Shown here: in pieces, positions 3,845 through 25,610 of the stretch | Position numbering within the stretch: position 1 is the first letter of the stretch | Layout of the letters: each line of letters opens with the position of its first letter | Assembly (NCBI GenBank): GCA_020073015.1 | Contig: JAIQFZ010000043.1 | Span: 1-52,399 of the forward strand | Reading direction: 5' to 3' | Length of the DNA stretch: 52,399 bases | Origin: Terriglobia bacterium | GTDB lineage: Bacteria; Acidobacteriota; Terriglobia; Terriglobales; Acidobacteriaceae | The notes under the pieces: generated by a model | Told to the model about the DNA's origin: nothing | The model's input: the letters and a program-made list of their open reading frames with translations, nothing else | Database searches by the model: none | Program-made: the position numbers and the translations under genes

Positions 3845-4330
3845 TCAGCCTAGTCCGCGGAGCGCGGTCAGCAGCTCCTCGACGTCGGGCAGCTGGCTGA
3901 TGCCGTAGACCTTAGCGAAGGCGATCTTTCCATTCTTGTCGACAATGAAGGCAGCGCGCTCGCTGATGCCGGGGACGGGCGGGGCTTCGCGGAGAATGCC
4001 GAACTTGCGGGTAACCTCGGCGTGGGGATAGAAGTCGGCGCAGAGGGGAACCTGGACGGGGCCAACCTCCTTCTGGCGCCACGCTACGTGACTGGGGATG
4101 GAATCTACGCTGATGTCCAGAACCTGGGCATTGAGCGCCTCGAACTCTTTGCGACGGGCATCGAGTTCGGGCACCTGGATGGCTCAAGTCGGGGTCCAGT
4201 CGAGCGGGTGAAAGGTGACGACCAAGTGCTGTTTGCCGAGATAGTCGCGGGAGCGGATGGTGATTTTCTTCTCGCCTGCGACGGCCGGAAGCTCGAACTC
4301 GGGGGCGAGATCGCCGACTTTCAGGGGCAT
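3845..4330 (-). CDS. AhpC/TSA-type peroxiredoxin, putative selenoprotein (in-frame UGA at codon 49)
   Basis: Thiol-peroxidase-fold enzyme expected to reduce hydroperoxides in the cytoplasm. Read from ATG 4330 (GGAG eight bases upstream), 161 codons include MPLKVGDLAPEFELP, then FHPLDWTPT-UGA-AIQVPEL, then VLDISVDS, ADFYPHAEV and ERAAFIVDKNG. The UGA (complement of 4184-4186) stands exactly where peroxiredoxins have the peroxidatic Cys of the PTC motif. Both flanks are well conserved in one frame, so decay is unlikely. A perfect 7-bp hairpin lies 21 nt downstream of the UGA. A standard caller would start at 4174 and lose the active site. A further Cys sits in the PLCADFYP segment and could be a resolving residue. 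A selD gene lies about 12 kb away. Confidence 0.87.
4141..4169 (-). promoter_or_regulatory. Candidate bacterial SECIS hairpin in the peroxiredoxin mRNA
   Basis: On the minus strand the arms CGAACTC (4169-4163) and GAGTTCG (4147-4141) pair perfectly over 7 bp around a 15-base loop whose first base is G. The loop begins 21 bases after the UGA. This fits the published bacterial SECIS model in spacing and in having a G at the start of the apical loop; the loop is about one base longer than that model. The fold is inferred by eye, without energy calculation. Confidence 0.6.
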
Positions 4331-4485
4331 GCTTTTCTCCGAAACGAGATTGTAATTGAAGTTGGGGGAGGCAGATTAATCACAGAGACCACCCTGCAAC
4401 TTCGCTCAGGGCAGACTCCGGACAGGGCGGAACACGGGTCCCAATCCTTTCTCGGATCAACATTGAATTAGCAGACAAAAAGAGA

Positions 4486-4969: not shown

Positions 4970-5911
4970 ATGAGCTTCCGTGTGGGGAAATTGGGGCTGG
5001 TTCTGGCGGGAATGGCGCTCTGGGTTGCTCCTCTGGCTGGCCAGGGAGACCTCATTAGCGACGTCCTCCACCGGCTGGCGGGGAGCGATTTTTCGGGTGC
5101 GGAGTCGGAACTTCGTAGCTACAAGGGCCAGCGCGGCGTCACTCCGGAGTATTTGGAGGCCCTGTCGTGGATGGCGCGCGAAGCCGCAGATATGAAGCAG
5201 TTTACCCAGGCCACCGGGTATGCCACCGAGACTCGGAAACTTTGCGAACAGCAACTGACCAAGCGCAAGCTCGACGTCGAACCGCACTTGCCGCTTGCGC
5301 TGGGGGCGGCGTACGAGGTGCTGGCGCAGGGGATGGCTGAAAAAGGTCAGCATGCCCAGGCGGTTGCGCTGCTGCGGTCGGCGTTGGTGCGGTACGGGAG
5401 CACATCGATTGCGCCACGCCTGCAGAAAAATCTCAACCTGCTGTCTTTGGTCGGACGAGCGGCCCCGGCTTTGCAGGCAGCACAGTATCTGGGACCGAAG
5501 CCGCCGGCGTTAGCGTCGCTGAAGGGCTCTCCGGTGCTTCTGTTCTTCTGGGCGCACTGGTGCGCAGACTGCAAGGCCGAGGTGCCGATCATCGCGCGCT
5601 TGCGCCAGGAGTTCGCGCCCGCCGGGCTAGTGGTGATTGGCCCAACGCAACTCTATGGCTACGCGGCGCAGGGGGCCGATGCTTCGCCGGCGCAGGAACG
5701 CGTTTATATCGAATCGGTCCGCCAGCGGTATTACGCCGGATTGCTTGATATGCCCGTGCCGCTGAGTCAGCAGAATTTCAAAATTTACGGGGCGAGTACA
5801 ACGCCTACGCTGGTCGTGCTGAATCGTGCGGGACAGGTGGAACTGTATCATCCGGGGGCGCTCTCCTACGACGAGCTTCGATCCGCCTTGCAGAAGGTGG
5901 TGGCTCGCTGA
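4970..5911 (+). CDS. Secreted TlpA/thioredoxin-fold protein with helical N-terminal domain
   Basis: A 313-residue protein with an N-terminal signal sequence (VGKLGLVLAGMALWVAPLAG). Residues of about 30-165 form a helical, TPR-like region (LEALSWMAREAADM, LGAAYEVLAQGMAEKG). A thioredoxin fold covers about 170-313. The redox motif WCADC places Cys at 198 and 201, followed by a TTPTLVVL cis-Pro loop. It probably acts in the periplasm as a thiol reductant or oxidant, in the ResA/TlpA style. The partner is unknown. It is divergent from cspA and stands alone as a transcription unit. Confidence 0.85.
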   Translation: MSFRVGKLGLVLAGMALWVAPLAGQGDLISDVLHRLAGSDFSGAESELRSYKGQRGVTPEYLEALSWMAREAADMKQFTQATGYATETRKLCEQQLTKRKLDVEPHLPLALGAAYEVLAQGMAEKGQHAQAVALLRSALVRYGSTSIAPRLQKNLNLLSLVGRAAPALQAAQYLGPKPPALASLKGSPVLLFFWAHWCADCKAEVPIIARLRQEFAPAGLVVIGPTQLYGYAAQGADASPAQERVYIESVRQRYYAGLLDMPVPLSQQNFKIYGASTTPTLVVLNRAGQVELYHPGALSYDELRSALQKVVAR

Positions 5912-15494: not shown

Positions 15495-16607
15495 TCAAGA
15501 TGCCACGCGGATCAGGGGTTTGGTACGCGGCAACACTTTGCCGATTTCGATGGCGGGAACTCCAGCCGCCTGCAGACCTTGGGTGAGCCCAACGGAATCA
15601 TTGCCCGCCACCGCGATCAGCAATCCACCGGCGGTCTGCGGGTCGTACAGGATCGTTTTCACTTCCTCGGAGATTCCACTCTCATATTCCACCACGCACT
15701 CCGCAAACTCGCGGTTGGCTTTGAGGCCGCCGGGGATGTAGTCGGCGCGGATGCAATCGAGGGCGCCTAAAAGCACGGGGATCTTCGCGGTATGAAGCAC
15801 CAGACTCACGTTTGAAGCGAGCGCCATCTCGCGGGCATGGCCGATGAGGCCGAAGCCGGTGATGTCGGTGAGGGCGTGAACGGGGAAGCAGTCGCTCGTA
15901 GTTCGGAGTTCGGAGTTCGCCGAGCCTCGCGGCGGCTGAACCGCATCGGAAACACGCGTAATTACTTCCGCGGCTGTCTTGTTCAGCGTAGTCATCGACT
16001 TCACAGCGGCGTCGATCCATTCCTGGCGCGCGACGCCTTTCTTGATGGCCGTCGAAATCACCCCGGTGCCGAGCGCCTTGGTGAACAGTAGCTTGTCGCC
16101 CGGTTGCGCGCCTTGGTTGGCGAGCACGCGTTTGGGATGAATCACGCCCGTCACCGAGTATCCGAATTTCATTTCTTCATCGCGAATGCTGTGACCACCG
16201 ACTACGGTGCATCCGGCTTCGATCATTTTCGACAGGCCACCGGCGAGGATCCGCTCGAGGATTTCGACATCCGCCTTCTCTGGAAAGCAGACCAGTGCGA
16301 GCGCCGTCAGCGGCTTTCCGCCCATGGCGTAGACATCGCTGAGGGAATTGGTAGCGGCGATCTGGCCGAAGGTGTAGGGGTCATCGACGATCGGTGTGAA
16401 AAAGTCGACCGTCTGGACGAGCGCCGTCTCCGGCGTGAGCAGATACACGCCGGCGTCGTCGGCGTGATCGAAGCCGACCAGTACATTCGGGTCCTGTTGC
16501 CGGGCTAATTTCCCAAGCACCGCGTCCAGCACCGCCGGACTCAGCTTGGACGCTCAACCCGCGGCTTTGACGGACTCCGTCAGACGGAATGGTTTCACGT
16601 CGGGCAC
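15495..16607 (-). CDS. selD: Selenophosphate synthetase, itself a putative selenoprotein (in-frame UGA)
   Basis: SelD makes selenophosphate from selenide and ATP for selenocysteine and selenouridine. The conserved core includes LVGFDHADDAGVY, VQTVDFFTPIVDDPYTFGQIAA and GCTVVGGHSI. Usual calls would begin at GTG 16532, but the same frame continues upstream as FRLTESVKAAG-UGA-ASKLSPAVLDAVL, which is the SelD N-terminus. The UGA (complement of 16554-16556) is at the catalytic Cys/Sec position. The frame is open to a stop at 16634. GTG 16607 (Sec18) or GTG 16598 are the likely starts; neither has a strong ribosome-binding site. Length is about 370 residues, normal for SelD. The peroxiredoxin at 3845-4330 is a candidate user of its product. 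Confidence 0.92.
16524..16551 (-). promoter_or_regulatory. Candidate SECIS element in the selD mRNA
   Basis: Downstream of the UGA, GTCC (16540-16537) can pair with GGAC (16527-16524) around the loop GGCGGTGCT, which begins 17 bases after the UGA and has G first. An alternative stem uses GTCCA-A-GC with GC-TGGAC but starts too early for the usual spacing. The stem is short, so this is weaker than the hairpin in the peroxiredoxin gene. Confidence 0.4.
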
Positions 16608-18202: not shown

Positions 18203-18499
18203 CTACGCTCCTTGAATTTGAAATGAAGCCAGGCCGGCGACCGGCTGAGCTTCGGATACTTCCACCTCATCCACGCGTGCCGCCCGCGGGCCTTCGCGCA
18301 GCCGCGAATGCAATCCGGCCAACTGCTCGCGCGTTCCCTGGGCCAGCACTTCCACGCTCCCGTCAGGATTATTGCGCACCCAGCCGGCGACCTGCAGAAT
18401 GAACGCTTCGCGCTCAACGAACCAGCGAAAGCCGACGCCCTGGACGCGGCCACGCACTAGAAAACGCCGGGCATGGACGGAACTTCGCTCAGGAGGCAT
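18203..18499 (-). CDS. acyP: Acylphosphatase
   Basis: A 98-residue small alpha/beta enzyme that hydrolyses acyl phosphates. The phosphate loop GRVQGVGFRWF contains the catalytic Arg, and NNPDGSVEV supplies the catalytic Asn. ATG 18499 (MPPERSSVHARRF) was preferred to a start at 18556, whose extra residues come from AT-rich repeat DNA. Its stop abuts the apt start. The C-terminus ends F-Q-I-Q-G-A, lacking the usual final Tyr. Confidence 0.93.
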   Translation of the reverse strand: MPPERSSVHARRFLVRGRVQGVGFRWFVEREAFILQVAGWVRNNPDGSVEVLAQGTREQLAGLHSRLREGPRAARVDEVEVSEAQPVAGLASFQIQGA

Positions 18500-25373: not shown

Positions 25374-25410
25374 ACCATCCTCCTTTGCACGCGAAAGGGT
25401 TCTTGGTGAT

Positions 25411-25610
25411 GGTTCGCGCCGGTCTCCTGGCTTGCGAGCTAGGGCTTTGTGGAGCCCGCTTGCTGGCGGCGTCCTTCCCAGGAGCTTCGGTAAGAGCTTG
25501 TTCCCAGTGGACGTTCGCCGTGTCCTCGCTTACAGTTGCGCGGCAGCGCGGGATTTGCACCCGCTTCCCATAGAGCCAGCAAGGAGCCGGCCTACGATCA
25601 TGCGCGAACC
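25411..25610 (-). promoter_or_regulatory. Cobalamin riboswitch
   Basis: On the minus strand the closing stem GGTTCGCGC (25610-25602) pairs with GCGCGAACC (25419-25411). Inside are the conserved GGGTGCAAATCCCGCGCTGCC, read from about 25560, then GCAACTGTAAGCG, CCTGGGAAGG and GCCAGCAAGCGGG, and the B12 box AGCCAGGAGACCGG (complement of about 25419-25432). This is the full class I arrangement. It ends about 40 bases before the receptor start, consistent with control by hiding the ribosome-binding site when B12 is bound. Confidence 0.95.

Follow-up and report, generated by a model that had tools for sequence, protein, structure and literature searches.

How a peroxiredoxin gene comes to carry a stop codon at the place of its catalytic cysteine, and what in its message could have that codon read as an amino acid, is the question raised by a locus of an acidobacterial genome (Terriglobia bacterium, assembly GCA_020073015.1). 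The locus lies in positions 1 to 52,399 of contig JAIQFZ010000043.1, a stretch called the window hereafter. Table 1 collects the features on which the argument turns.

Table 1. Features of the window, with offsets in the message counted from the U of the UGA as 0.
Feature	Position	Strand	Basis or remark
Sec-peroxiredoxin CDS, 161 aa with predicted Sec49	3845..4330	(-)	Stop included; Pfam match and UGA/Cys column in relatives
UGA codon, presumed Sec, peroxidatic position	4184..4186	(-)	Frame reading, relatives' column 49, motif residues
GGAG, ribosome-binding-site-like, upstream of ATG 4330	4337..4340	(-)	Read from sequence
Hairpin A, +11..+52	4134..4175	(-)	Folding; includes 7-bp stem 4169-4163/4147-4141
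Hairpin B, +55..+73, AUGCCCA-GGUUC-UGGACAU	4113..4131	(-)	Loop begins 59 nt past the UGA; the window copy has one C.A mismatch
selD (selenide, water dikinase), own in-frame UGA 16556-16554	15495..16607	(-)	Presumed GTG start
selD SECIS-like canonical hairpin, GUCCGGC-GGU-GCUGGAC	16524..16540	(-)	Loop 20 nt after UGA

The gene, its relatives and the codon at the active site

The frame opens at ATG 4330, meets an in-frame TGA at 4186-4184 and runs on to its final stop, TGA 3847-3845, with no other interruption. Read through, the protein matches Pfam AhpC-TSA with 101.6 bits over residues 5-138 (curated cut-off 26), and since this match spans both flanks of the UGA, these belong to one family and one frame, just as the first-pass annotation had it. 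The same annotation had put the UGA exactly at the catalytic Cys, which is borne out by the PxxxTxxU motif and by relatives with UGA or Cys in the same column. The motif and the active-site Arg are all present in the window protein, and in the 48 UGA proteins compared below Pro42 is found in 44, and Thr/Ser46 and Arg125 in every one. The AlphaFold model of the read-through protein (mean pLDDT 96.0, pTM 0.91) superposes on Prx1/AhpC structures with a TM-score of about 0.9 (5zte and other Prx1-type chains). At the level of sequence comparison, the gene product is confirmed as an AhpC/Prx1-fold peroxiredoxin with a predicted Sec at the peroxidatic position. Read with table 11, the ORF from ATG 4330 ends after 48 codons and, as had been foreseen, standard annotation loses the active site.

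In the catalytic cycle that we envisage, the selenolate of Sec49 would attack peroxides with the assistance of Thr46 and Arg125, and the oxidised enzyme would depend on an external thiol for its re-reduction, as there is no universal resolving Cys: Cys97, the sole other Cys of the window protein, is found in 29 of the 48 UGA proteins and therefore cannot serve all of them in that role. In 2-Cys peroxiredoxins the resolving Cys is carried by the C-terminal tail. The window protein, with its 161 aa, is without such a tail and has Sec for Cys, in both of which it differs from the Prx1/AhpC peroxiredoxins whose fold it is predicted to share (PDB 5zte, 1zye). The forward strand of the window encodes, at 4970-5911, a further protein whose domain is AhpC-TSA/thioredoxin-like (37.6 bits) and which begins 640 nt from the Sec-peroxiredoxin start codon. 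The sequence matches of the window protein include Rv2238c (1xvw), which we take to be AhpE.

The Sec-peroxiredoxin itself is of an already known kind, and what is new here is its RNA signal. The Sec-peroxiredoxin of Eubacterium acidaminophilum was reportedly the subject of a paper in 2001. In the parts of the literature accessible to us, Sec-peroxiredoxins appear as a known selenoprotein family (PMC13188914; PMC1794560) with 91 proteins in 78 organisms (PMC5029168), and selenoproteins are known from Acidobacteriota, with three in Occallatibacter riparius (PMC12013277). With the bacterial TxxU type of these enzymes (the E. acidaminophilum type), the window protein has the AhpC/TSA fold and the peroxidatic Sec in common, whereas its gene differs by the two-hairpin signal discussed below. 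Against NCBIfam PrxU (NF040737) it scores 65.8 bits, below the cut-off of 270, and it therefore belongs to another subfamily.

Relatives were gathered from a GTDB scan (38) and from 200 genomes of the order, 50 of which gave 61 matches at E <= 1e-20. Combined, these make 99 loci with 93 distinct sequences, the window's own counted. Column 49 of their alignment holds UGA in 48 of the 93 distinct sequences, Cys in 36 and Ser in nine, so that the alignment proposed by the first-pass annotation returned Sec or Cys at this place with the exception of the nine Ser rows. Eight of these form one group in the tree, and the ninth (L112) falls just under a 38% identity limit and stays outside the tree. 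Distant rows (<38% identity, or from Poribacteria) make up 15 of the 36 with Cys, and therefore the closer comparisons use smaller sets, i.e., 19 Cys and nine Ser rows for folding, 29 non-UGA rows for synonymous identity and hairpin rules, and 21 Cys and eight Ser rows for the motif. Eight gains or losses of the UGA label are required on the best tree, which holds 80 proteins, and well-supported branches force at least four of them; Sec and Cys have therefore been exchanged repeatedly. Within the order, 35 of the 200 genomes have a UGA-peroxiredoxin.

The Ser paralogues (L108, at G000:C86:10901-11362, with L099, L102, L104, L106, L107, L109, L110 and L112) deserve a remark of their own. In their eight aligned rows the catalytic Thr position is Glu, Asp or Gln in six and T or S in two, all nine of their genomes also hold a UGA copy, and at L108, L099, L104, L106 and L110, the five loci whose surroundings were inspected, the paralogue adjoins an ORF resembling, by eye, an M28-type peptidase.

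The machinery needed to read UGA as Sec is in place. SelD makes the selenophosphate from which SelA makes Sec-tRNA(Sec), and SelB delivers Sec-tRNA(Sec) to the UGA. All four genes, selA, selB, selC and selD, are found in the genome: the selD that had been noticed in the window is indeed there (Table 1), and a search for the other three, which the first-pass annotation had suggested, gave a tRNA-Sec gene with anticodon UCA (71 bits), selB (374 bits) and selA, the last in two parts on contigs C136 and C189, of which one scores 380 bits and the other is an N-terminal piece. A second RF01852 match over the cut-off (47.3 bits) was rejected as tRNA-Sec, ARAGORN calling it a tRNA-Ser. The two selA pieces lie at the start of G000:C136 (L001) and near 73046 of G000:C189 (L002), with residues TAAPGCPAERSSA on both where they part, and our guess is an assembly break at a dispersed repeat. 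A repeat-like word, CCTGAGCGAAG, occurs eight times in the window at up to one mismatch (1.5 expected), with exact copies at 4400-4410 and 18483-18493, and a Cobalamin riboswitch (77 bits) lies at 25400-25608 on the reverse strand.

Across the order, selD (E <= 1e-40) is present in 88 of the 200 genomes and in all 35 of those with a UGA-peroxiredoxin, a co-occurrence with a hypergeometric probability of 3e-15, uncorrected for relatedness. selB (E <= 1e-70) is found in 33 of the same 35, some of the matches being partial. As for the remaining two, G167 has selB-like pieces on several contigs and G126 a 101-bit partial selB match below the cut-off, and each of them has a tRNA-Sec match over the cut-off.

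Two hairpins downstream of the UGA

The published model of the bacterial SECIS, as given in the accessible part of a 2026 review, asks for a loop of 3-9 nt with a G in its first two places, 16-37 nt from the UGA, and a folding energy of -7.5 kcal/mol or lower (PMC13188914). The 7-bp hairpin reported by the first-pass annotation, CGAACTC/GAGTTCG, is present at 4169-4163/4147-4141, and its G-first loop does start 21 nt after the UGA. That loop, however, has 15 nt against the 3-9 nt of the model (PMC13188914, same part), and in the minimum-energy fold extra inner pairs leave a loop CCGUC, without G in the first two places. Among the relatives a hairpin, here called A, is kept in that place, but the exact stem is not. 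What had been noticed was probably an incomplete signal, as the invariant SelB-like loop sits in a hairpin further downstream, here called B, that had gone unreported.

Hairpin A keeps its position among the UGA genes, with varying loop and register. Compared with synonymous shuffles, the span +9 to +53 folds with a z of -2.25 in the 48 UGA genes, -0.14 in the 19 Cys genes and +0.13 in the nine Ser genes; in a later gene set, among the matches listed, z is -2.44 in 22 held-out UGA genes and +0.15 in Cys genes. These 22 were grouped by a Pro two residues before the Sec, which takes L247 in and leaves L221 out, and among the matches listed the consensus column pairs of stem A form in only 2-15 of 22 held-out genes per pair. 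Judged from the aligned sequences, hairpin A is kept as folding energy and not as fixed pairs. Its apical loop begins 21-32 nt after the UGA, i.e., at the canonical distance, and passes the published loop rule in 30 of the 48 genes and fails it in 18 (17 for want of a G in the first two places, one for its length), the window's own hairpin A also failing the G/loop rule. In five of the 48 the loop opens with G[G/U], either directly or behind a single extra base.

Hairpin B behaves quite differently. Its consensus is AUGCCCA-GGUNN-UGGGCAU, and the word CCCAGGU stands at +58 in all 48 UGA genes, in two of the 36 Cys genes and in none of the nine Ser genes; at least six of its seven pairs form in 48/48, 6/36 and 1/9, respectively. 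Over +51 to +77 the folding z is -1.84 and -1.85 in two B-bearing sets and +0.56 in others (the later sets among the matches listed). Taking the 48 together with 22 later genes among the matches listed, all 70 B-type genes show a G at the first or second position of the B loop, 67 of them with GGU and one each with AGU, CGU and GAU. The C.A mismatch seen in the window copy recurs in 19 of the 70. Folded alone, this copy reaches -5.0 kcal/mol, the 48 B hairpins spanning -3.5 to -14.7 (-7.5 or lower in the published model), and in the minimum-energy fold of the whole 78 nt B is absent from the window copy and present in 56 of the 70 B-type genes.

In UGA genes the excess of synonymous identity is highest in stem A, at codons +4 to +8 and +13 to +15, and in hairpin B, across most of codons +18 to +25, with a further peak of 0.41 outside A and B at codon +31; in the 29 non-UGA relatives it is near zero at most codons, with single values up to 0.32. 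In the gap-free alignment of the 48, 90.8% of the cells of the A and B helices are paired, against at most 45.3% when the partners are slid by 1-3 columns. Doubly changed cells number 18, against 3.8 in shuffles (none of 500 as high), and pairs changed on both sides five, against 2.4 (4/500 as high), whilst the number of further pair types in A and B is not unusual (112/500 as high). A kissing contact between GACC in loop A and GGUC in loop B looked possible by eye in many genes, but every synonymous codon there pairs too, and no such contact is claimed here.

In the genome, the pattern CCCAGGTNNTGGNC has eight matches (a control pattern has two), with an open UGA frame 58 nt upstream at the peroxiredoxin only, and therefore no second gene using B was found in this genome.

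Hairpin B was defined on the first 48 genes and then followed into a held-out set, for which 396 genomes of the phylum were searched with a profile. This set is not fully independent because three GTDB-scan genes that group with distant Acidobacteria (L022-L024) were already among the 48 and in the search profile. Every UGA gene among the matches listed that lay outside the first set, some of them within L211-L235, was taken in; L211 was dropped as a repeat of L022, and 43 held-out UGA genes are left, 20 of them TxGU, i.e., with Gly as the residue before the Sec, and 23 non-TxGU, with another residue there. At least six pairs of B are found in 22 of the 23 non-TxGU genes among the matches listed, the exception being L236 with five. 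Among the changes met in them, pair 60/68 is flipped from C-G to G-C in L217, and C-G replaces T-A at 56/72. None of the 12 held-out Cys genes among the matches listed has six or more; L222, one of these, is identical with L113 in the first set.

Genes with a near hairpin

The TxGU genes (L245-L248, L250-L255 and L258-L267) constitute a sister type of Sec-peroxiredoxin spread across the phylum. Among the matches listed, B is present in none of these 20 (L245 has the CCCAGGU word but five pairs), and every one of them carries G[G/U] at +26, in most cases within a hairpin like UAUCA-GGC-UGAUA with its loop 23 nt after the UGA. A strict canonical test, i.e., at least five continuous pairs and a loop of 3-7 nt that opens with G[G/U] either at once or after a single base, is passed by 17 of the 20 TxGU genes against 5/48 and 4/23 of the B-type genes (17/20 and 4/23 among the matches listed), a comparison that is descriptive because the test was chosen after the selD and TxGU genes had been seen. 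Looser rules do not discriminate: a 4-bp stem at 16-37 nt whose loop has a G as its first or second base is found in 31/48 UGA and 18/29 non-UGA genes, and the loose rule with G[G/U] at 38-65 nt in 45/48 and 16/29.

The selD genes of the order also have their hairpin close to the codon. Matches in 88 genomes gave 71 distinct selD sequences (56 UGA, 15 Cys), and a loop GGY stands 20 nt after the UGA in all 56 UGA genes; six or more of the seven pairs form in 55 of these 56 against two of the 15 Cys genes, with a G-C/A-U exchange at one pair. In the selD UGA genes (window 15495-16607 on the reverse strand, relatives within L130-L207) AAATTAGCCCGGCA is kept at the level of nucleotides near +45, including the Leu codon TTA, in 45/56 UGA and 1/15 Cys genes. 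As a second selD hairpin AAATTAGCCCGGCA was rejected, the windows around it folding less than their synonymous shuffles (z up to +0.8).

How the codon may be read, and what this would mean

The preference of the first-pass annotation for recoding over decay is supported by the presence of UGA in 48 of the 93 distinct sequences and by the sel machinery. That the gene is a pseudogene, or a Cys peroxiredoxin struck by a nonsense mutation, is scarcely credible: the stop that table 11 sees after 48 codons would follow from such decay, but 48 distinct genes share the UGA with a frame open on both sides and their catalytic residues kept, synonymous conservation is tied to the UGA, and selD accompanies it in every one of the 35 genomes. 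It is also very improbable that another tRNA reads this UGA as Cys, Ser or Trp, or that it acts as a programmed stop. Cys is indeed the common alternative at the peroxidatic column, but the genome has a tRNA-Sec with its UCA anticodon and the Sec machinery genes, and B is mostly lost where the codon is Cys, which fits Sec insertion. A sequencing error at the UGA codon was considered and rejected, TGA being present there in 48 distinct sequences out of many genomes. We hold it very likely that the UGA is recoded as Sec and that both hairpins belong to the signal.

The division of labour between the two hairpins is less certain. We favour, with a probability of about 0.6, a distinct bacterial SECIS class in which a predicted SelB-binding G[G/U] hairpin stands 59 nt after the UGA and an intervening spacer hairpin would restore its reach. 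It resembles the bacterial consensus, as the accessible part of PMC13188914 describes it, in having a short stem and a small apical loop with a G, usually followed by G or U, and departs from it in that the conserved loop is 59 nt and not 16-37 nt from the UGA, with another hairpin between. SelB would bring Sec-tRNA(Sec) to the UGA at 4186, A would fold between the codon and B as a spacer, and B would offer SelB its loop, whose first two places contain G and which is GGU in nearly every gene. With about 33-43 nt looped out in A, the path from the UGA to B may shrink from 59 nt to about 16-26 nt, an effective spacing that is largely set by the fold window allowed and that coincides with what is usual for bacterial SECIS elements and with the 20 nt of the genome's own selD. 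It is possible, if doubtful, that SelB binds at A, which is at the canonical distance and would have a relaxed loop, and that B is an accessory, e.g., an aid to pausing or anti-termination. The apical loop of A, 21-32 nt after the UGA, is inside the 16-37 nt rule and obeys the loop rule in 30 of the 48 genes; A folds strongly (z -2.25, and -2.44 in held-out genes among the matches listed); many predicted bacterial SECIS elements are unlike one another (PMC13188914, in the part accessible); and the B of the window has its C.A mismatch, its -5.0 kcal/mol when alone and no place in the 78-nt minimum-energy fold. Against this, the loop of A fails the rule in 18 of the 48 and starts with G[G/U] in five, whereas that of B meets the G rule in 70/70, and the TxGU genes, which have a near G[G/U] loop, all lack B (20/20 among the matches listed), so that replacement fits better than addition.

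Hairpin B is, in our judgement, the likelier candidate for the SelB site, and given its complementary pattern with the near hairpin, the simplest reading is therefore that B replaced the near hairpin in that function. The displaced type would, on balance, characterise a Sec-peroxiredoxin subfamily of many Acidobacteriota families, with the near hairpin retained by the sister subfamily and by the selD of the order. In the accessible parts of open-licence literature only (including PMC13188914, PMC12013277, PMC5029168, PMC1794560, PMC8659212, PMC7609411, PMC3834832 and PMC8533274), we found no description of a displaced or two-hairpin bacterial SECIS, or of an acidobacterial Sec-peroxiredoxin, which does not prove their absence. 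The same part of the 2026 review does state that the model does not fit some of the bacterial SECIS elements predicted so far, and that these speak for distinct classes (PMC13188914), of which the two-hairpin signal would be one defined case.

A gene caller that uses table 11 would truncate this enzyme at the catalytic residue, and 35 of the 200 genomes of the order have UGA copies. Should B prove to be where SelB binds, the distance rule by which bacterial selenoproteins are found is too narrow and may overlook other genes whose signals are displaced. The sister peroxiredoxins of the phylum, with near and far hairpins, also offer a natural comparison for how SelB bound to a far hairpin gains access to the ribosome.
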